Shown here: positions 3,467-18,629 of the stretch, piece after piece
Numbering within the stretch: position 1 is the stretch's first letter
How the letters are laid out: each line of letters begins with the position of its first letter
From: a virus
Reading direction: 5' to 3' (one strand)
Virus record (IMG/VR): IMGVR_UViG_3300034103_001343
Location: 1-23,057 of that record
DNA: 23,057 nt
Position numbers and translations under genes: made by a program
The notes under the pieces: model-generated
Seen by the model: only the letters and a program-made list of their open reading frames with translations
What the model was told of the DNA's origin: nothing
Databases searched by the model: none

Positions 3467-4315
3467 TTATACTTGTCTTCCTAACTTAGATTGAAATGCC
3501 TGAACTAAAATATAATATCTTTTTGCCTCCTGCGATGTTAATCCAGTACCTATTGAACTAAAGGCAATTTCTTGTGGACTACCAAGTGCTGGACTATTAC
3601 TATCATTTCTTACTGCATACCAAATATTTAGATTTGGAGGAGTTTGTGATGCACCGGTCTGAGTCGCTCCATTTTGAATGCCATTTATAAACAATCTTTG
3701 GTCATTGCTTGCAATTCTTGAGCCAATATGAAATCCCTTTGAGTCAGTAATTCCAGTGCTTGGGCATCTATTAGCATCTACATTATTTATATTAATATTA
3801 CCAAGACCAGCAGTTGTTGTACTTGCATTTATTTGAGTGAAGAGAGTACCATCCCAACAACCCATTACAACCGAAGGTGTGGCTTGGCTCTGCCTAACAT
3901 AAATAGCCAAATGTTGGTTGTTTTGACTCCCGTTAGTGCGGGGATTATAATTTGAATTAGCCCTATTTGCAGTACTTCCATTTGTCTTCATACCGGTAGA
4001 AGCAACCGTCCATGTCCCGGTAAAGGTCATGTTAAAGGCATTTTTTAAATCAAAACCAACGGTTGATGTGGAACTACCAATTACCGGGTAAATGGCTTGG
4101 CACTTGTCATAAATTTCATTTGCAACCATTGACAATATTAGATTATTGATTGCATCTATTTCATTGATAGAAGGGCTATATCCTGCAACAACAAGTCTAT
4201 TTAAAAAATTCATAACCTGAGGGTGTAGTGTTTGTTGAATGGCAGTAGAGCCACCTATTACCCTTGTACCTCCTGCATATATGGTTGTTAGTGGCATTAG
4301 TTCAGATAGTGGCAA
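3467..4315 (-). CDS. Tail fibre / receptor-binding-like protein with a LamG-like (concanavalin-type) fold
   Basis: A 282-aa protein. The N-terminal ~90 residues contain a helical segment (LHPQVMNFLNRLV, INEIDAINNLI). The rest reads as an N/S/T/G-rich beta sandwich with features typical of LamG/concanavalin-like carbohydrate-binding modules in phage fibres: HLAIYVRQS, KGFHIGSR, RLFINGIQNG, and a closing helix (LTSQEAKRYYILVQAFQSKLG) that is common in such fibre proteins. It follows the repeat-bearing fibre gene with a 19-bp overlap, which supports a role in the same adsorption structure, perhaps as the tip. The fold assignment is by pattern only. The ligand cannot be inferred. Confidence 0.65.
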   Translation of the reverse strand: MPLSELMPLTTIYAGGTRVIGGSTAIQQTLHPQVMNFLNRLVVAGYSPSINEIDAINNLILSMVANEIYDKCQAIYPVIGSSTSTVGFDLKNAFNMTFTGTWTVASTGMKTNGSTANRANSNYNPRTNGSQNNQHLAIYVRQSQATPSVVMGCWDGTLFTQINASTTTAGLGNININNVDANRCPSTGITDSKGFHIGSRIASNDQRLFINGIQNGATQTGASQTPPNLNIWYAVRNDSNSPALGSPQEIAFSSIGTGLTSQEAKRYYILVQAFQSKLGRQV

Positions 4316-6267
4316 TAATTAACAATTGAACTTATAGAACTTGTTGTTCCTGGATTAGTCCAAGTAGCAACTACTTGTAATGTCAAGGCAGATGATGTGT
4401 TTAATGATGTTGCGGTTACTTCCGCAGGAGTAATAAAAACTGTCTCCTGATCTTTAGCAGTATGATTCACAATCATTTTTCCTGCTACACCAAAAACCGG
4501 ATTAGAACCTGATGATCTACAAGTAATACTTGTATCTATAACATATACACGATTTGTTAAATTGGTAGTGTCATAACTAAGTGTACCTAAAGTAACTGTT
4601 GTTGTTCCATCGGTTATTCTGAAATCAATTGCAACAAGCGGGCCTCCCGAATTAGCCATGCTAATTAATCCAGATAAATAAAACGCAATAGTTTTACCTG
4701 TTCCAAAGAAATTAGCAGGAAGCGCAGTAGCTCCTGTAACTGTGCCTATAAGAGACCCTGATCCAGTAGTTATTGCAGTTGGTGTATTTGTCTGAGCATA
4801 TATCCCCAAAGCAGTTAATTCTGATCCTTTGCTTATTGTTCCATTAGAGTCTGCCTGCAATAGCGCAGTTCCACTGGTAGCCAAGTCTGGGTTGCGGTCA
4901 ATGGTAACAATCTTGGTGTAATTGCTATCCTTGCGCATTGTGATGCTTGTGTTGCTACTAGCAGTATCAACCCAGAGAGAACCATTAGTAGTTCCACTAA
5001 TCGTTGCAGCGGATGTGGGAGTAAGAATCAAATGTGGAACACCTCCACTTGCTGCTCCAAGTTGTAACCTTGCTCCAGGTGTTGTAGTTCCTGCAATGCT
5101 TAGTCGGTCATTAATATTGTCAAAAAAGAAGTTTGTATTGTCCTGTTGTAATTGGCCTGAAGCAACAAACAATACTGATCCATTAGTTCCAGAGGTAATG
5201 GTGCTTCCTATTGAAATTGTTGCCGCAGGAGCATTAACCCATGATGGAGCAGAGCCTGTGCCATTGGATTGTAGGATTTGACCTGAAGTTCCTGCCGTAG
5301 GCAATTGAGATACTGCCGTGCCTGTTGCGGCATAATAAGTCAGTCGGTTAGCAGTACCAGAGTTTACAGTACCACTTCCTGATCCGGTTGCGGCAATAGT
5401 AAATGAAGGATAAGTTCCTGTAACACTTATTCCAGTTCCTGAACCTAATGAAACAATTTGGTCAGGAGCAGTATTTGCAATGGTAAAATTCGGATAAGTT
5501 CCTGTTGCATTAATTCCTGTTCCCGAACTAATAGCAACAATCTGATCAGGTGCAGTATTGGCAATGGTAAAGTTTGGATATGTACCAGTAGCATTAATCC
5601 CAGTGCCTGAACTAATAGCGACAGTTTGATCTGGTGCAGTATTGGCAATTGTAAAGTTTGGATAAGTTCCTGTTGCATTAATTCCAGTACCTGAACTAAT
5701 AGCAACAATCTGATCAGGAGCGGCATTAGTTAAAGTAACTGCTCCACTTGTTCCTCCTCCGCTTAATCCAGTTCCGGCAATTACGGCAGTAATATCACCC
5801 CCTCCACCTCCTCCGGAGATAGGGAAGAACCCGACCATCCTCCAGTTTCCTGAGCCTTCAGAGACAAGCATAGCGCAATCTCCTGCGGCAGTGGTGATGT
5901 CTGATCCACCGGGAAGAATCAATGATGTGGCATTGTAGGTCAATGTGCAGATGCCATCAAAGACTAAAACAAACCGACCTCCTGCCGGAATAGTGCCAAA
6001 ACTTGTGATGCCATTGAATGCCCCTGTGATGTGTAAGTAATTTCCAGTTGCATTTGCCAGATTAACTGTGGCAGATGCCGCTATATCACTTCCCTCATTC
6101 TCATAGATTACATTCTCAAGTCTGGAGGAGTCCTTCTGGGTGACAAAAGAATCAATCCCATTTTCCAGCCAATCCCTTAGATCAGCTGGAGAAATGAGCT
6201 GTGAAGTATTGTTCGGGAAGTTAGTGAGACTTAGTGCATCTAAGGCACTCCTGGTAATGTTAGGCAT
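4297..6267 (-). CDS. Tail fibre protein with four 28-residue repeats
   Basis: A 656-aa protein. Residues 1-150 form a collar-like N-terminal part ending in a glycine run (SGGGGGGD, residues 151-158). Residues 183-294 are four consecutive 28-residue units, each beginning APDQ and containing SGTGI-ATGTYP-FTIA. The first three are nearly identical (one I/T change) and the fourth is diverged (VSLGSGTGISVTGTYP). The rest is G/S/T/N-rich with trimeric-fibre-like strands (GQILQSNGTG, TNGSLWVDT), followed by a C-terminal domain after about residue 490. Such repeats usually form the elongated shaft of a homotrimeric fibre. The gene starts 3 bp after the upstream tail gene and overlaps the next fibre gene by 19 bp. 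The near-identity of the repeats points to recent expansion and makes copy-number change by recombination likely. Confidence 0.75.
   Translation of the reverse strand: MPNITRSALDALSLTNFPNNTSQLISPADLRDWLENGIDSFVTQKDSSRLENVIYENEGSDIAASATVNLANATGNYLHITGAFNGITSFGTIPAGGRFVLVFDGICTLTYNATSLILPGGSDITTAAGDCAMLVSEGSGNWRMVGFFPISGGGGGGDITAVIAGTGLSGGGTSGAVTLTNAAPDQIVAISSGTGINATGTYPNFTIANTAPDQTVAISSGTGINATGTYPNFTIANTAPDQIVAISSGTGINATGTYPNFTIANTAPDQIVSLGSGTGISVTGTYPSFTIAATGSGSGTVNSGTANRLTYYAATGTAVSQLPTAGTSGQILQSNGTGSAPSWVNAPAATISIGSTITSGTNGSVLFVASGQLQQDNTNFFFDNINDRLSIAGTTTPGARLQLGAASGGVPHLILTPTSAATISGTTNGSLWVDTASSNTSITMRKDSNYTKIVTIDRNPDLATSGTALLQADSNGTISKGSELTALGIYAQTNTPTAITTGSGSLIGTVTGATALPANFFGTGKTIAFYLSGLISMANSGGPLVAIDFRITDGTTTVTLGTLSYDTTNLTNRVYVIDTSITCRSSGSNPVFGVAGKMIVNHTAKDQETVFITPAEVTATSLNTSSALTLQVVATWTNPGTTSSISSIVNYCHYLN
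5386..5721 (-). repeat. Four tandem 84-bp repeats inside the tail fibre gene
   Basis: Four in-frame 84-bp units encode the 28-residue repeat of the fibre shaft. Synonymous differences between units (for example aattcctgt against aatcccagt) show that the copies are under protein-level constraint and not freshly duplicated at DNA level. The fourth unit (about 5386-5469) is the most diverged. A long open frame in another register here is a shadow of the repeat. Confidence 0.9.
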
Positions 6268-6269
6268 AT

Positions 6270-8567
6270 TTAACCACCGTTGTCATATCCATCATCAAAT
6301 CCATCATCAAATGCTCCACCTAGTTCTGATTGCAGATTAGAGTAAAGCAATGTGAATTGAGTTGTACCACCGGAGGCATCTTCCGGTTGATTGGTTGCCG
6401 AAGTTATAAAGCCTTCAATAACCAAACTGCCAGAGGTGAGCCTTACTTTCTTGTACTGCTCATCCTGAGACAAAGTTAAGAAATCGCAGAGACTTTGTGG
6501 GTAACTAAATGTAACCTCAATTGGCCTGAGTAGATAGTCCTTATAAGGCTCATCCAGAAAAAATGGAGAGACTGAATCGTTCTCTTTGATGCCCTGCTCT
6601 GGAAGGGCAAAAATATTGCAATCGTAACCAGTTATAATGCCTATTTCAATATTGGTAAAGTACTGGCCTACTTGAAACTGAAGTTTAGGAGCATTCCAAA
6701 CAATGTCATCAGGAGTTTTATAGGTGAACATTCCAACCCACTTCCACCATCTATATGCAATCCTTGCCGGAGTGATGGCAAAATTATATCTGTTGTCTAG
6801 TATGTCTCCATTGACATTACAAGCTATATTACTACTTGCCGATACCGTTCCCGGTACAAATGTGACCGCACCTGGAGTATCACCTGGAAGGTTATATTCA
6901 CTATCTTCTACGAATGTAACAGTAAATTCACTTCGATTAAGCCAGATAATAAATGTCTCATTATCATTCGGCCTATCCGAAGTTGCCGCACCAAAGGTGA
7001 TGTCAGACATCCTTCGGTAAAACTCTATCGCATAACCCTCTGCAATTATGTTTGATCTTAAATCCAATGTGGCAGATGAGTTATTATTCATTGCCTTGTT
7101 CTGAATGAAATAATTACGATCTGTGTGAACTGCATAAACACCACCAATCTGAATATTCTTCCATCTGTCGGTGTATCCGGTAATGATATTGTTCATAAGC
7201 ATATCCACCTTGGCCGCCTGAACAACTTCTCCTACATTGGCAAATGATTGACTTACCAAGTTCTGGTAGAAGTAATCTCTGGTTTCAACCCTGATTTTCC
7301 ACTCCGAACCTGTCCACTCGAATGCCCATCCAAGGCAGAAGATTTTATCGAGATCCTCAAAGGTCTTCTTCCAGGAAGTCATTAACTGCGTTCCTGCCTC
7401 TGTGGTATTATTCCTAATCCTGATACCATTGGTTAAGGCATAACTCCATTCACACCCATTGCCTGACTCACTAAAGGTGTCTGATAGCAACTTGTTATCG
7501 CTTCCTGTCATTACATAGATACACCTTCTTAGCCATTGCTCAATGGTGAGAACATCGGAAGTAGAAGCATATTGTCCTTCGTTTATTTCGCTAAGAGTAA
7601 TGGTGTAGCCATCGTAGATTGTAACATCTGAACTTGATTGTATAAATGGTTCTCCTTCAAAATATAAAGTGAATTTACACCCTGGATCTATTGTAAAACT
7701 TCCTGTATATGTTGCATTTGTAACCGTATCGGTTTGTCCAATTAATAATGTACTTGTGTGAAGTGTATTTACACTACTTACCGTAGTACCACAAGCGACC
7801 AAAGCAAATAAATATATATCCGCTGCACTTGGAGACCCACCTGTTCTTGCAACTTCAAAAGATATGTTTATTTTATAGTTAATTGTCCTTTGAGTGCTTT
7901 GGTTGTTTACAAATATTGGTGAACTAAAAGCATTGGCAAAACCAGTTATTTGAAGAAAAGCACTATTTATTGTAGAACCATAAGCCTCTTTAAAGTCTGA
8001 ACTTGTCCAATAAGTTGGTACAGCAACATATTTATGAAGTGCAGGAACTGGACTCCATCCAACAATACCAGTAAAATCCGCATAGTTCTTACCAGTAGCA
8101 GTCAAGTAAAGAGGCATCCGGTGCATCCTGATATTCCGGAATGCCAAGGCATTTATGGTACTATCATTTAAGTCTTTGGTTTTTGTTAGGTCAATCTCTA
8201 CATCAGTTCTGGCCTTGAAATCCTCCCTGAAATTATCATCAATGATGCCTACTGTAATCTCCCAGGAGTCAGTATCACAGACATTCTTCTCTTGATAAAT
8301 TGCCAGATTGAGAAAGCCATCAAACTGGTAGGAGGAGTTTCCATAGCCTACATCAGAAGTAATGGTTATGGCAATGGGTTGATTGATGAAGTACTCATCA
8401 TAAATCCTTTTTATGTATCTCGCTCCTTCCGCATAGAACCTCACCTCAGTGCTGAATGGCTGATCTATGCCATGAGATTCCATCCGGATTGCCGTGAACT
8501 CAATGGCATCCCAGCCGATTGGTTCTTCTACTTCATTCCCATCAAGAAAAAACTTCCAGTTCGCCAT
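6270..8567 (-). CDS. Tail protein (distal tail/baseplate type), unassigned
   Basis: A 765-aa protein encoded directly downstream of the tape measure, the position of distal-tail and tail-associated lysin/baseplate-hub proteins in siphoviruses. It opens with MANWKFFLDGNEVEEP followed by beta-rich sequence (FSTEVRFYAEGARYIKRIYDEYF), compatible with a distal-tail-like N-terminus. The middle (about residues 330-500) is of mixed composition with WEWTGSEW-like segments. No peptidase or lysozyme motif is evident. The C-terminus is a short acidic/glycine repeat (FDDGFDDGYDNGG). Its start shares bases with the tape measure stop (TAATG), implying coupled translation. The role is inferred from position; the family is not recognised. 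Confidence 0.7.
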   Translation of the reverse strand: MANWKFFLDGNEVEEPIGWDAIEFTAIRMESHGIDQPFSTEVRFYAEGARYIKRIYDEYFINQPIAITITSDVGYGNSSYQFDGFLNLAIYQEKNVCDTDSWEITVGIIDDNFREDFKARTDVEIDLTKTKDLNDSTINALAFRNIRMHRMPLYLTATGKNYADFTGIVGWSPVPALHKYVAVPTYWTSSDFKEAYGSTINSAFLQITGFANAFSSPIFVNNQSTQRTINYKINISFEVARTGGSPSAADIYLFALVACGTTVSSVNTLHTSTLLIGQTDTVTNATYTGSFTIDPGCKFTLYFEGEPFIQSSSDVTIYDGYTITLSEINEGQYASTSDVLTIEQWLRRCIYVMTGSDNKLLSDTFSESGNGCEWSYALTNGIRIRNNTTEAGTQLMTSWKKTFEDLDKIFCLGWAFEWTGSEWKIRVETRDYFYQNLVSQSFANVGEVVQAAKVDMLMNNIITGYTDRWKNIQIGGVYAVHTDRNYFIQNKAMNNNSSATLDLRSNIIAEGYAIEFYRRMSDITFGAATSDRPNDNETFIIWLNRSEFTVTFVEDSEYNLPGDTPGAVTFVPGTVSASSNIACNVNGDILDNRYNFAITPARIAYRWWKWVGMFTYKTPDDIVWNAPKLQFQVGQYFTNIEIGIITGYDCNIFALPEQGIKENDSVSPFFLDEPYKDYLLRPIEVTFSYPQSLCDFLTLSQDEQYKKVRLTSGSLVIEGFITSATNQPEDASGGTTQFTLLYSNLQSELGGAFDDGFDDGYDNGG

Positions 8568-10984
8568 TAGTTATTTATGCCAAATCTATTGTTAAGAATC
8601 TTAGTGCTGCGCCTTGGTGTGCGGATAAACTTCTCAAAGCCTCGCTCATCCATGTTGAGCTGAGTGATTGGTAGGCCTTTTAAAATGCTTCCTAACTCTC
8701 TAAGCTCACCCACCACCGGAGAGCCAGCACTGCTGCTGCTTCTGTTGGCATAGTGGTTAGCCAGAAACACCTCCTGCCTGCTCAGGGAGTGGTTAGGAAT
8801 AACTTGTGAGCCTTTAGGCAGGTCTACAAGAGTAGCAGTTGGTGGAGTGAAGTAAACTTTGCCTGACTCGGTGACAACCTTCTCTACCCCTCGCTCACCG
8901 ACTATTGCCTTACCTCCTTTGAATGCCTTGCCTTTAGTACCTTCTGCAAACTCAGGCACAGGCTGAGCTAATATAAAGCCAATCTGGGCAGCTTGAGTTG
9001 CTAGAGTCAAGGCAGCAAGTGGCAATGTAATCGGATTGCTTGACCATTTAGCAATTATTGATGCAGTTTCAAACACAACTCTAGCCACAGCAGCATTTCT
9101 TTCAGCCTGGAATTGCCTAGTCTTAATTTCTCTTTCCTTTTGATCTCTTCTATTATTGATTTCGGTAATCTTCTGCTCATTGCCATCAGCTAGCCTTATT
9201 TCCTCATTGTATCGCTTCTGTAATGCCGATAATTCATTGCTAAGGTTAGCCTGGTATAAGTTAAATGCTCCATCTACAAGTGTTTGGCCTAATTCTAAGG
9301 TTAGCTGCTTAATTGCTTGTTTTTCTTCTTCTGCTTTTTTTGCCGCTTCAACTTCATCAGCTAGCCCTTTCTCATAGGCTTTCTGCCATGCCTTCATCTG
9401 GGCTAGTCGCTTATCGTAAAGAGTCTTATCCTCTTCAGCAACTTGTATCTTTACCTCTTTAGTTACTAGAAGCTCCTTCTTGGCTGCATCTTCGTAGTCT
9501 TTTGCTGCCTTATCTCTCTGTAGTTTGGCTACCTTGACTTCATCTTCTATAATGCCAATGTTCTTAGTGCTGTATTCTTTTTTTAAGTCATAAACCTTCT
9601 GCTGAAATACCTTTTCAGCACCTACCTCACCCAGTTTTGAGCCTCTTAGCTGAGCCATCAGCACTTGCTGCTGCTTCTCCAGCTCAAGTAATTTTAGCCT
9701 GGCTTGATATTCGGCCTTGATTTGTTTTTCAGTGGCTTGATCAACCTGAAGATTCTTCTTTTTCTCTTCATATAGCTTAGTAAATACATCAATAGTTAGT
9801 TGGTATGAGTTAATTAAAGACTCTTGATTAGCTATCTGCTCGGCAGTAACCGTTCTTGAAGTAGTAATTGTCTGCTGTTGAATGTCATCATATTCATTTC
9901 CGCTTGCTCTATATTCTTGCATTACAACCTCAGCAGACCCACTTTCCTCGCCAAATATCTGTTTCATCTGGGCGAGCCTATCCTTTTCAATCTTTATGCT
10001 ACTTTCTGCATTGGTTTTTCCATTTTTTAAAGCCTCAGAGCTTGCATTGCTATATTTCTCATATAACTTATTGAAATTTTCTCCAGCCTCTTTAATTTGT
10101 TTACCTCCAAATAAATCGTTTAGCTTATTAAGGAATGCAGATGTTAAAACTAATGCCTTCTGATAAACTGGTGCTAGATTAGTGCCAATGGTATTGAGTA
10201 AACTATCATAAGCATCTCCAAGGTTGCTGATTTGCCCCTCTAGTGTTCCAGAGATTGCAGCCATTGCCCCACTAACACCTTGAACATCGCCTAGCGAAAC
10301 TAAATACTGTCTGATGGCATCGTTAGTAAATTGAACCTGAGTCTGAACACCTTTAAATGTGAATGTGACCTGATCTCCAGCCTTGCTTGCTCGGATGCCA
10401 AACTCCTTTAATCGCTCAAACTCTCCTGTCTGAGCATCTATTATTGCCTCCGCTAATTGGTCAAATCCTTTTCCGGTGGATGAAGCCAGGTCTCCTAGCC
10501 TTCTCAACTGAGCAACAGTAGGTGTGAATCCTTGATTGGCTAGTTTTACAAATGACTGAGTAAGTTCTTGCACCGAAAATGGTGTCTCTGAGGCAAACTT
10601 CTGGATGTTAGTCATTGCCCCAGCTGCTGCACTCCTGCTTCCAAGTGTATTGGTAAGAACAGCAGATAGTTTCTGAAACTCCCCAGTCACAGCAATGACC
10701 TCTTTAGCAAAGCCCATGACTTTATCGGCAGCAAAGATTCCTGCTATTGCTGGTGCAATTTTAGAAGCAACAGCTCCCATGCCGCCCATAGCATCACCAG
10801 CATCCTTACCAGACTTCTTAGCTTTATCTCCTACTTCATCAAACTGCTTCTTGAGTTTCCCAAGCTCAGCAAGCAACTGCCGTTCCTCGGAAGTAATCTT
10901 ATCAAATTCAGAAGTAGCCTGCTGAAGTTTACTCAGGTCAATGTCATACCTGATCTTGATGTCATTAGTTGAAATCGTTGCCAT
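8567..10984 (-). CDS. Tail tape measure protein
   Basis: An 805-aa protein that sets tail tube length and helps DNA delivery. Residues 1-60 are a helical coiled coil. Residues about 75-275 match the conserved tape-measure N-terminal region, including SETPFSVQELTQSFVKLANQ, the GKGFDQLAEAIIDAQTGEFE stretch and ERLKEFGIRASKAGD. A long charged K/E/Q-rich coiled-coil zone follows at about 370-650, then a hydrophobic segment around 650-680 (PLAALTLATQAAQIGFILAQ). The protein ends with the GERGVEKVV ... LPKGSQVIPN pattern seen at the C-termini of many phage tape measures. It lies directly after the frameshifting chaperone gene. At roughly 1.5 angstroms per residue it implies a tail near 120 nm (a general rule, not measured). 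A hairpin terminator lies 20-45 bp upstream of its start. Confidence 0.93.
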   Translation of the reverse strand: MATISTNDIKIRYDIDLSKLQQATSEFDKITSEERQLLAELGKLKKQFDEVGDKAKKSGKDAGDAMGGMGAVASKIAPAIAGIFAADKVMGFAKEVIAVTGEFQKLSAVLTNTLGSRSAAAGAMTNIQKFASETPFSVQELTQSFVKLANQGFTPTVAQLRRLGDLASSTGKGFDQLAEAIIDAQTGEFERLKEFGIRASKAGDQVTFTFKGVQTQVQFTNDAIRQYLVSLGDVQGVSGAMAAISGTLEGQISNLGDAYDSLLNTIGTNLAPVYQKALVLTSAFLNKLNDLFGGKQIKEAGENFNKLYEKYSNASSEALKNGKTNAESSIKIEKDRLAQMKQIFGEESGSAEVVMQEYRASGNEYDDIQQQTITTSRTVTAEQIANQESLINSYQLTIDVFTKLYEEKKKNLQVDQATEKQIKAEYQARLKLLELEKQQQVLMAQLRGSKLGEVGAEKVFQQKVYDLKKEYSTKNIGIIEDEVKVAKLQRDKAAKDYEDAAKKELLVTKEVKIQVAEEDKTLYDKRLAQMKAWQKAYEKGLADEVEAAKKAEEEKQAIKQLTLELGQTLVDGAFNLYQANLSNELSALQKRYNEEIRLADGNEQKITEINNRRDQKEREIKTRQFQAERNAAVARVVFETASIIAKWSSNPITLPLAALTLATQAAQIGFILAQPVPEFAEGTKGKAFKGGKAIVGERGVEKVVTESGKVYFTPPTATLVDLPKGSQVIPNHSLSRQEVFLANHYANRSSSSAGSPVVGELRELGSILKGLPITQLNMDERGFEKFIRTPRRSTKILNNRFGINN

Positions 10985-11062: not shown

Positions 11063-11353
11063 TTATGTTCTCACCTTAGTCCTCTTCTTTTGGTCTGCAA
11101 TATAGCTACTCACAATTAAATAGTACTCGTAGATTGGCCTTTCGACCAGGTATTTAATTCGCTCAAAATCTCCATTTGCAACTCTATACTGCTCATCAAA
11201 TCGCTGTCTGTGCTGTCTGGTAATTGCAGTCCAATAATGTGCTTCAGGTTGTTTAGGTTTTGCAGAGTTTCTGCCTGCAAATAGCTCGGGAAATTCGTGC
11301 TGTACTCGGTCAAAGAGGGCAGATAGGCGTACTCCGGCAGATTCAAAAAAAAA
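11063..11353 (-). CDS. Tail assembly chaperone C-terminal (-1 frame, T-like) extension reached by frameshift
   Basis: In the -1 frame relative to the 11116-11868 gene, a stretch of 96 sense codons runs from the T9 tract (11353-11345) to TAA at 11063. The same frame has TAA and TGA stops immediately upstream of the tract, and no ATG near its beginning, so it would be entered from the upstream gene. The translation starts FESAGVRLSALFDRV, passes through FDEQYRVANGDFERIKYLVE and ends YIADQKKRTKVRT. It has balanced composition and ordinary codon use. The fused product would be about 268 aa (174 zero-frame plus 94 from the -1 frame). The arrangement directly before the tape measure is that of lambda G/GT-type chaperones, in which the extension binds the tape measure. 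A sequencing error in the homopolymer is the alternative. Confidence 0.72.
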   Translation of the reverse strand, partial: FFFESAGVRLSALFDRVQHEFPELFAGRNSAKPKQPEAHYWTAITRQHRQRFDEQYRVANGDFERIKYLVERPIYEYYLIVSSYIADQKKRTKVRT

Positions 11354-11868
11354 CCCTGAACATCATTATGCTCCATCCAATGGCTGAGCTTAGACTTGTT
11401 ATATGGGTATTGATAGTCCAGTGGATTCTCATGCTCATCAAAATAGACAACTGTTGCCAGCTTCATCTGCCTAACCAGGCTAACCGATAGCTCCATCTGC
11501 TCCTTTAACCGGGATGCCAGAATGCCTATCTCATAGAGCTTCTTGTCATCCTTCTTCTTCTTGTCCAGCAGTAGATTGATTAGACCATTGTTCCAGCCTT
11601 TCAGGTAGTCTGGGTTGATTTGCCAAAGCTCTTCAGTGAAGATGTCTCTGGCTGCTACTGCTCTCTGAAATGGCACATTGACCTCTGCCGTGAACTTGAA
11701 GTAATTGACTCCACCAGAGGTGAAAGCAAACTCAATCTGATCCCAGCGGTCTTTCGGAGCTACACCCCTGTAAAGTATTCTGTTACCTTGTTCTTGAGAA
11801 GCAGCTTCTTCTGCCACTTGTTGAACAGGAGCAGGCACAGGTGGTTTGCGCCTAAAAATATTGAACAT
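11116..11868 (-). CDS. Tail assembly chaperone, zero-frame (G-like) product
   Basis: A protein of 250 aa starting MFNIFRRKPPVPAP. The same frame is open to 11940, but the first 24 codons of that extension lie over the membrane-protein gene, so the ATG at 11868 is preferred. The N-terminal half is well structured (DRWDQIEFAFTSGGVNYFKF, residues about 41-60) and rich in charged residues around a lysine cluster (LLDKKKKDDKKLYEIG). Position immediately upstream of the tape measure and the internal slippery T9 tract identify it as the tail assembly chaperone pair, whose ratio is set by frameshifting. The zero-frame C-terminus after the tract (about 76 residues, S/T/L/N-rich) is less protein-like than the -1 frame in the same DNA, so the biologically important C-terminus may be the frameshifted one. 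Family membership is inferred from context, not from sequence similarity. Confidence 0.75.
   Translation of the reverse strand: MFNIFRRKPPVPAPVQQVAEEAASQEQGNRILYRGVAPKDRWDQIEFAFTSGGVNYFKFTAEVNVPFQRAVAARDIFTEELWQINPDYLKGWNNGLINLLLDKKKKDDKKLYEIGILASRLKEQMELSVSLVRQMKLATVVYFDEHENPLDYQYPYNKSKLSHWMEHNDVQGFFLNLPEYAYLPSLTEYSTNFPSYLQAETLQNLNNLKHIIGLQLPDSTDSDLMSSIELQMEILSELNTWSKGQSTSTI
11345..11353 (-). other. T9 slippery tract for -1 frameshifting
   Basis: The zero frame reads GGT TTT TTT TTG here. A one-base backward slip on the T run changes ...GFF-L into ...GFFF-E and enters the long -1 frame. Homopolymeric T or A tracts support ribosomal -1 slippage as well as polymerase slippage. The site follows -1-frame stop codons by only a few codons. 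Confidence 0.72.
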
Positions 11869-12155
11869 AAGTAAAATGGATAGTGAAAAATAAGGCAAGA
11901 GATTATGAGGAACTGCCAAGCACCGGAGCAGAATGGGCATTCCCCTAAGGGCTTAGCCCAATAAGTCGGGAGCTTCTGAATCTGTGACAGATACCACTGC
12001 CCAACTGGGTGATCCTCCAGAAGGAAGTCCAGAAACAATGAGAAGGATGCGCTGAGTGCCGCTATTAGCAACAACATCAGCAGGCTCGGCATCGTTAGGT
12101 AATTCGATAAGGCAACAGCCTCTGCGCTTGCCTCCACAACTTGCATCAATATCAT
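11760..12155 (-). CDS. Small membrane protein with a CPFCSGAW cysteine motif (DUF1360-like)
   Basis: A 131-aa protein. A hydrophobic segment at about residues 22-45 (LLMLLLIAALSASFSLFLDF) is followed by PTYWAKPLGECPFCSGAWQF (residues 63-82), then a second and third hydrophobic stretch (about 82-112), and a basic C-terminus. The CxxCxGxW signature after a helix, preceded by LP..(W)AKPLG, resembles small phage and bacterial membrane proteins grouped as DUF1360-like. The function is unknown. The ATG at 12155 overlaps the TGA of the preceding gene (ATGA), which supports this start; an internal ATG at 12092 is an alternative. The 3' end overlaps the chaperone gene by 109 bp and the 5' part overlaps a 72-aa open frame. 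Confidence 0.7.
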   Translation of the reverse strand: MILMQVVEASAEAVALSNYLTMPSLLMLLLIAALSASFSLFLDFLLEDHPVGQWYLSQIQKLPTYWAKPLGECPFCSGAWQFLIISCLIFHYPFYLCSIFLGANHLCLLLFNKWQKKLLLKNKVTEYFTGV

Positions 12156-14370: not shown

Positions 14371-14949
14371 TTATTTTAGAAATTGATAAAAATCATTTTT
14401 TGGAGTTATCTGATAAATCCAGCAGCCATATTTTGAAAGTATATTATTGCCAAAGTACTCATCAACTGCTTTTTTAACTCCCTCCCATTCTGGATAGTCA
14501 TGACCTGCAATTACTCCTCCTAGTTTGACTTTCGGAAACCAAGCCTTAATATCGGCAATGACATTGTCATAGTCATGAGAGGCATCGATAAAGCAGAAGT
14601 CAAGTGATGAATCTTCCACAAGTTTAGCAGCTTCAAGGCTGGTGGATCTAACCGGAGTGATTATGTCATTAAGCGGCTCAATGTTTTTTAGAAATTCAGC
14701 ATAAAGAGTTTTGTCCTTGATGGCATCAATGTCTTTGGTAAACTCACAGCCTGCCCAAGTATCAACACAAGTGAAAGAATGTTCTTTACCGCTGTTAATT
14801 ATTTCAACACCCATGTAAACAGATGATCTGCCCTTCCAGCTACCTATTTCGTAAAAGTTACTTTTAGGCCGGAAGTATTCAACTGCTGCTGAATATAGCT
14901 TAGGGTAGCTAAACCAATTCTCACCAATATTATGGTAATAGTGCTTCAT
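14371..14949 (-). CDS. Class I SAM-dependent methyltransferase (Methyltransf_24-like)
   Basis: A 192-aa protein. Motif I is FYEIGSWKGRSSVY (residues 32-45), followed by an acidic end of strand 2 in FTCVDTWAG, then LDFCFIDASHDYDNVIADIK (about 124-143) as motif IV/V and LGGVIAGHDYPEWEGVKKAV. This order matches small-molecule or sugar-type class I methyltransferases of the Methyltransf_24 group, not DNA methyltransferases, because no DPPY/NPPF-type catalytic motif or target-recognition domain is visible. The substrate is unknown; cell-surface glycans or virion components are options seen in other phages. It begins 2 bp after the 48-aa lysine-rich gene and is separated from terS by 36 bp. Confidence 0.8.
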   Translation of the reverse strand: MKHYYHNIGENWFSYPKLYSAAVEYFRPKSNFYEIGSWKGRSSVYMGVEIINSGKEHSFTCVDTWAGCEFTKDIDAIKDKTLYAEFLKNIEPLNDIITPVRSTSLEAAKLVEDSSLDFCFIDASHDYDNVIADIKAWFPKVKLGGVIAGHDYPEWEGVKKAVDEYFGNNILSKYGCWIYQITPKNDFYQFLK

Positions 14950-18071: not shown

Positions 18072-18629
18072 TTAAATGAAAACCATCAAACTATTTTTAA
18101 ACCACCAGAGGCTGGCTGCTTTGCGCAGCTGGTTAGTCAATGTGTCCTCTAGGTAATAACCTCGCTGCTGCATCTGTTGCATGATGTAGTCATTGGTCTG
18201 GCAATTGACATGCCCATCACCTACTTGACCAGGCACTGCCCAAGAGAGAATGATTATGCCATCATCAAAACAGTGCTTGACTATGTTGTCCAGAAATGCC
18301 TGCTCAAATTCTGCTGGTATGTGTTCGCCCACTTCCAGACTCATTACACACCCAAACTGCTTTAGTAGGTTAAATGGCTGGCTCAAGTCCTTAACTGATC
18401 CGATACCTCCTGTAAGCTGCTCAGTGAATGGATTGCCATCATAGGCTTCTACTACAAATCCGTACTTCCTGAAGAATCTGGCATAGTCTCCAGTGCCACA
18501 TCCAAAGTCCACTAAGGTGTCGCACTTCCTGCGCCTAAGTATCTTTAGAATAGCTCCTGCCAGCCTGCTATCATGGGCATGTCCTTCATTGGTTGGATTC
18601 TCCCAGAATCCTTTCTTATTTATGTTCAT
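18072..18629 (-). CDS. Class I SAM-dependent methyltransferase (Methyltransf_23/11-like)
   Basis: A 185-aa protein. The SAM-binding motif I is VDFGCGTGDYARFF (residues 40-53), an acidic residue follows strand 2 in EAYDGNPF (about 61-68), and CVMSLEVGEHIPAEFEQAF (about 93-111) is the typical motif IV region (S-L-E-V-x-E-H-I-P). DGIIILSWAVPGQVGDGHVN forms motif V/VI. It therefore resembles small-molecule methyltransferases of the Methyltransf_23/11 group. No DNA-methylase catalytic motif is seen, so the substrate is unknown. Its start overlaps the VRR-NUC gene by 14 bp, placing it in the same early leftward operon. Confidence 0.85.
   Translation of the reverse strand: MNINKKGFWENPTNEGHAHDSRLAGAILKILRRRKCDTLVDFGCGTGDYARFFRKYGFVVEAYDGNPFTEQLTGGIGSVKDLSQPFNLLKQFGCVMSLEVGEHIPAEFEQAFLDNIVKHCFDDGIIILSWAVPGQVGDGHVNCQTNDYIMQQMQQRGYYLEDTLTNQLRKAASLWWFKNSLMVFI

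Follow-up and report, generated by a model that had tools for sequence, protein, structure and literature searches.

The gene that precedes the tape measure in the window analysed here (the whole stretch of DNA, a viral record of 23,057 bases in IMG/VR that belongs to a family of Bacteroidota phages) carries a run of nine T's from which two different C-terminal tails can be read, and we consider it probable that slippage at this run yields a G-like/GT-like pair of products with swapped C-terminal domains and a role as tail chaperone. The frameshift itself is of a known kind, that of the G/GT chaperones, and what is new is the long overlap in which both tails are under selection.

On the minus strand the sequence across the slip site reads CAG GGT TTT TTT TTG AAT, and direct reading places the nine T's at 11345-11353, as in the initial annotation. 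The slip site as a whole (GG-T9, 11345-11355, minus strand) is GGT TTT TTT TTG with the core heptamer T_TTT_TTT. The zero frame begins with an ATG at 11868 and ends with a stop codon at 11118-11116, giving a G-like product of 250 amino acids (11116-11868, minus strand) that is conserved in 83 sequences. The longest mechanical ORF for this chaperone-candidate gene starts at 11940, however, conservation among relatives supports 11868 as the likely true start. The first 171 amino acids (11356-11868, minus strand) form an N domain common to both products, and are followed by a zero-frame tail of 79 codons counted from GGT, or 75 beyond the codons of the T run. The −1 frame is closed upstream by adjacent TAA and TGA codons, which start 13 and 10 nt ahead of GGT. 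It is then open for 96 codons from the first T of the run (11353-11066) up to a stop at 11065-11063, which lies 53 nt beyond the zero-frame stop, and together with this stop constitutes the putative T-like C-terminal domain (11063-11353, minus strand). The two upstream stops and the open frame ending at 11063, against 11116 for the zero frame, had already been reported in the initial annotation with correct coordinates. The dual-coded stretch, bounded by the GGT codon and the zero-frame stop, is 240 nt long (11116-11355, minus strand).

The late genes, on the minus strand, run from the small and then the large terminase subunit through two small ORFs to the slip gene and the tape measure. The tape measure gene (8567-10984, minus strand) lies directly downstream of the slip gene and is recognized by PHROG matches with E-values down to 8.8e-44; its Pfam TMP_3 match falls under the cut-off. 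Direct similarity places a tape measure match right after the slip gene in 227 of 236 loci, the nine loci lacking a direct match being mainly distant relatives. Among the remote members L204 and L208 give tape-measure PHROG matches, and L208 keeps the gene order of terminase, terminase, slip gene, tape measure and next structural gene.

At its 5′ end the slip gene overlaps an upstream ORF (12155-11760) by 109 bases in the +1 frame (window 11760-11868, minus strand). Substitutions are depleted in both frames of this overlap too, implying that the slip gene is dual-coded at both ends. The upstream ORF (11760-12155, minus strand; 4656-5006 in L204) encodes a small membrane-like protein with a KPL...C-P-x-C motif (AKPLGECPFCSGAW in the window, TKPLYNCPICMSS in L204). 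A similar match is present in 222 of 230 loci, and searches of Pfam and PHROG with this protein gave no match. Elsewhere on the minus strand the window holds a tail-fibre-like ORF with repeat units such as PDQIVAISSGTGINATGTYPNFTIANTA (4297-6267) and two methyltransferase-domain genes (14371-14949 and 18072-18629; Methyltransf_24 and Methyltransf_23).

Relatives were collected from IMG/VR using the N domain and the −1 tail as two separate queries, and these retrieved mostly identical sets of contigs. In all 83 distinct near relatives the 13-mer GGTTTTTTTTTGA is invariant and the phase of the −1 tail is constant. In these sequences the open −1 tail spans 92-97 codons, and the zero-frame tail measures 79 codons in 81 of them and 81 codons in the other two. 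Conservation across 83 distinct sequences excludes a chance origin of the −1 frame, and the extension, which the initial annotation read as a normal, charged protein, is a conserved protein domain. The layout is also kept in clade 2 (L152-L167, L187, L192, L199 and L200), where the −1 tails are approximately 42-54% identical to that of the window and the zero tails have 79 or 85 codons. Three members of this clade (L156, L157 and L160) have GAT TTT TTT ATT, that is seven T's and then an A, with the phase kept. The N domain is conserved down to just 32-38% identity to the query in the Bacteroidota MAG contigs L204-L208. These contigs, together with the viral contigs L270 and L271, have nine T's in unchanged phase; their zero tails span 42-70 codons, compared with 90-99 for the −1 tails. 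The search with the −1 frame that the initial annotation had recommended was productive in IMG/VR, whereas phage records searched with the slip gene, by DNA and by protein, gave no match. Two surveys, each covering 395 Bacteroidota genomes, recovered no genome other than the seed, implying that cellular genomes seldom carry prophages of this type.

Sequencing and assembly are known to miscount homopolymers, and were the T9 run such an error the gene would really be one continuous frame. One contig, L013, does carry a −1-type domain in the zero frame. However, the run has equal length in independent assemblies (83 distinct sequences), the distant MAGs agree, the members with seven T's show the same phase, and both frames could not otherwise stay conserved, so that an error deserves virtually no credence. 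The N domain of L013 is 84% identical to that of the window, and its tail is 93% identical to that of L152. At 938-960 of this contig, next to the slip site, a clade 1 N domain passes into a clade 2 tail, and a single additional base is present there. With its halves from different clades and its additional base, L013 has the appearance of a recombinant or of a chimeric assembly, and it was set aside as a one-frame exception. The initial annotation had named a miscounted run and a −1 frame that is not conserved as the observations that would overturn it; both were looked for, and neither was found.

In order to measure selection in the two frames, substitutions were inferred on a 63-sequence tree and sorted according to what each did to the zero-frame and to the −1 reading, and the count in every class was scaled by the opportunities for such a change. 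In the clade 1 overlap the rate per opportunity was 7.39 for doubly silent changes, a value that rests on few sites and, like all these rates, on site-by-site parsimony reconstruction. Changes altering the −1 protein alone occurred at 0.77, those creating a −1 stop at 0.03 and those altering the zero-frame protein alone at 0.50. In the upstream control of the same clade, zero-silent changes gave 2.85 if they were −1-silent, 2.67 if they were not and 3.01 if they produced a −1 stop. Clade 2 showed the same pattern, with overlap rates of 1.94 (doubly silent), 0.21 (−1-altering), 0.05 (−1 stop) and 0.24 (zero-altering) and upstream control rates of 0.83 (−1-silent), 0.79 (−1-altering) and 0.69 (−1 stop). 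The steep fall from 7.39 to 0.77 and 0.03 within the overlap, against near-equal rates upstream, implies conservation of the −1 protein. For overlap changes that are silent in the −1 frame, the contrast between zero-silent (7.39) and zero-altering (0.50) implies conservation of the zero-frame protein as well. The count also contained apparent stop mutations in the zero frame, and these were attributed to codons that changed repeatedly, combined with reconstruction of ancestors site by site. When the zero-frame protein was held fixed and its codons were resampled, the −1 frame was open in 0.04% of draws per sequence, while in the reverse resampling, with the −1 protein fixed, the zero frame was open in 6% of draws.

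Collectively, these comparisons among related sequences show purifying selection on both frames throughout the 240-nt overlap. Hence neither tail is a by-product, and a sequencing error is excluded. The initial annotation had called attention to a dual-frame stretch of about 240 bp as unusual and had suggested comparing conservation in both frames; this comparison, with depletion of −1-altering and of zero-altering changes in two clades, upholds it.

A profile comparison of the distant relatives gave a less symmetrical picture, with −1 tails homologous over 91 columns (probability 97%, E=9.4e-11) and zero tails homologous over the first 40 columns only (E=4e-4). Since the −1 tail is deeply conserved over its full length and the zero tail in its first half only, there is a hint that the distal zero tail may be the younger or faster-evolving part. 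The same asymmetry, along with distant zero tails of just 42 codons, would fit a gene in which the −1 tail alone is functional and the zero tail has stayed open through chance or as a side effect of constraint on the −1 frame, its stop merely lying far downstream. This we regard as very improbable, as changes to the zero-frame protein alone are depleted in both clades (0.50 vs 7.39 and 0.24 vs 1.94), the zero tail has the same length, 79 codons, in 81 of 83 near relatives, and its mean identity among relatives is 0.83 compared with the 0.34 expected if the −1 protein alone were kept, with no selection on the zero tail.

The slip site itself is strictly maintained. The 12-mer GGTTTTTTTTTG has zero substitutions on the 63-sequence tree, compared with 8.6 per upstream Phe third position. 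In the N domain TTC exceeds TTT for Phe (393 vs 337 codons), and TTG accounts for just 49 of 1227 Leu codons. This preference for TTC, the rarity of TTG and the invariance of the site imply that the T run is kept for its own sake. A heptamer of the X_XXY_YYZ type, T_TTT_TTT, stands in the correct phase in all members examined, including the variants with seven T's. The −1 tail contains no ATG in any of the 83 sequences, and its first GTG or TTG lies at least at codon 65 or does not occur, so independent initiation of this tail was ruled out. Pseudoknot-free folding of windows of 50-120 nt downstream of the site gave no structure above chance (mean z of +0.2 to +0.6); some tailed phages are known to manage their shifts without a downstream stimulatory structure (PMC5009743). 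With ATG codons missing from the −1 tail and no stimulatory RNA structure in the predictions, the sequences indicate that this tail is reached by slippage at the T run.

Slippage could in principle occur in the RNA polymerase or in the ribosome. In the former case one U would be added at T9, and the 10-U mRNA would be translated normally to give the fusion. The corollary in clade 1 is that loss of one U would bring a UGA right after the run, yielding a truncated N domain in addition to the two other products. T9 is a good substrate for transcriptional slippage, a process with documented cases among bacterial genes, mxiE being one (PMC5009743), and nine T's are found in nearly all members, remote ones included, though a T7 heptamer suffices for ribosomes. 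However, in the three clade 2 members with seven T's followed by A the layout is unchanged, and on account of these members the sequences favour ribosomal −1 frameshifting. Runs of T7 length slip poorly in transcription in the bacteria studied. In the known G/GT pairs it is ribosomal shifts that operate (PMC5009743), and we consider transcriptional slippage unlikely here.

With ribosomal frameshifting, the majority of ribosomes would pass T9 unshifted and produce the N domain with a C-terminal tail of about 76 residues, a G-like product. A minority would slip back one base on T_TTT_TTT, with the Phe-tRNA re-pairing to UUU, and would produce the identical N domain with another C-terminal domain of about 95 residues, a GT-like product. 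The shift would then amount to an exchange of C-terminal domains, in which two selected tails are drawn from about 240 shared bases. In lambda many gpG and few gpGT work jointly, with recruitment of the tube protein falling to the T domain (PMC5009743); by analogy, the N domain may bind the tape measure while the −1 tail may recruit the tail tube subunit. We infer the ribosome as the slipping machine, the ratio of the products and the chaperone function, the last of these from the position of the gene and the architecture of its products.

Several features match the G/GT arrangement. The gene is immediately upstream of the tape measure gene, two products with a common N part are predicted from the sequences to arise by a programmed shift, and the second ORF has no start codon of its own. 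A usual though non-defining trait of G/GT genes, a slip close to the zero-frame stop, is absent, as about 230-240 nt intervene here and 26-36 nt on average in known phage chaperones. The fit to G/GT chaperones advanced in the initial annotation holds for the position, the common N part and the start-less −1 domain, and for the chaperone function itself it stays an argument from position and architecture. Searches for chaperone similarity in Pfam, PHROGs, NCBIfam, PDB and BFVD gave no sequence or fold match, with a best E of 0.09 in fold searches using the model of the zero-frame product. The pLDDT was 71.6 for this model and 68.4 for the −1 tail modelled alone, and the models suggest with modest confidence, low for the −1 tail, that both tails are helical. 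The lack of a match would suit a genuine slip-dependent two-product gene with another role, for example as another tail factor or a head-completion factor. However, known chaperone pairs have little sequence in common (PMC5009743), and the position immediately before the tape measure, the common N part with an added −1 domain and the gene order unchanged in the remote L208 make such a role quite unlikely. We thus retain the tail chaperone as the preferred reading. Rather more cautiously, we lean towards a two-tailed chaperone in which both selected domains are needed for tail assembly, one of them having been partly overprinted on the other in an ancestor of the present Bacteroidota phages.

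Tail chaperone frameshifts are usually described as a C-terminal extension, whereas here a domain exchange appears to take place over about 240 dual-coded bases. The implication is that the unshifted chaperone would require a C-terminal domain of its own. One published frameshift finder counts among its features how close the zero-frame stop lies (PMC10885494), and across a large group of uncultivated Bacteroidota phages the second product will probably escape frameshift finders and gene callers alike. Our literature search found no description of such an arrangement in Bacteroidota phages.

Among phages of Bacteroidota, Flavobacterium phage vB_FspM_pippi8-1 (MN812205) likewise has two ORFs, gp038 and gp039, directly before its tape measure gene, annotated as separate hypothetical proteins. 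They appear to be an unannotated classical −1 pair (L151 6143-6867), with A AAA AAG leading into the gp039 frame. In contrast to the gene described here, the overlap in pippi8-1 is of the classical short type, with the slip just before the zero-frame stop, and there is no sequence similarity between the two.

As in lambda gpG/gpGT (PMC5009743), the slip gene adjoins the tape measure gene and combines a common N part with a start-less −1 C-terminal domain; comparison of the slip gene with lambda gpG/gpGT found no sequence similarity. In lambda the slip occurs towards the 3′ end of G and only lengthens the protein, whereas here it is followed by 240 nt in which both frames are selected. The poly-T site, the −1 direction and the tail gene cluster are shared with gpE/gpE+E′ of P2 and with the P2-like phage Smp131 (T6G or T7G; PMC3931495). 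According to that paper, P2 E′ reaches just 37 nt back into E; measured by this figure the present overlap is about six times that of P2, and it is dual-coded under selection. Position and logic are also alike in the frameshifted chaperones of SEA-PHAGES genomes and of the phages of Xu et al. The mean distance from slip to zero-frame stop is 26 nt in the former and 36 nt in the latter, both as given in PMC10885494, compared with about 230-240 nt here, a distance that is maintained in two clades.
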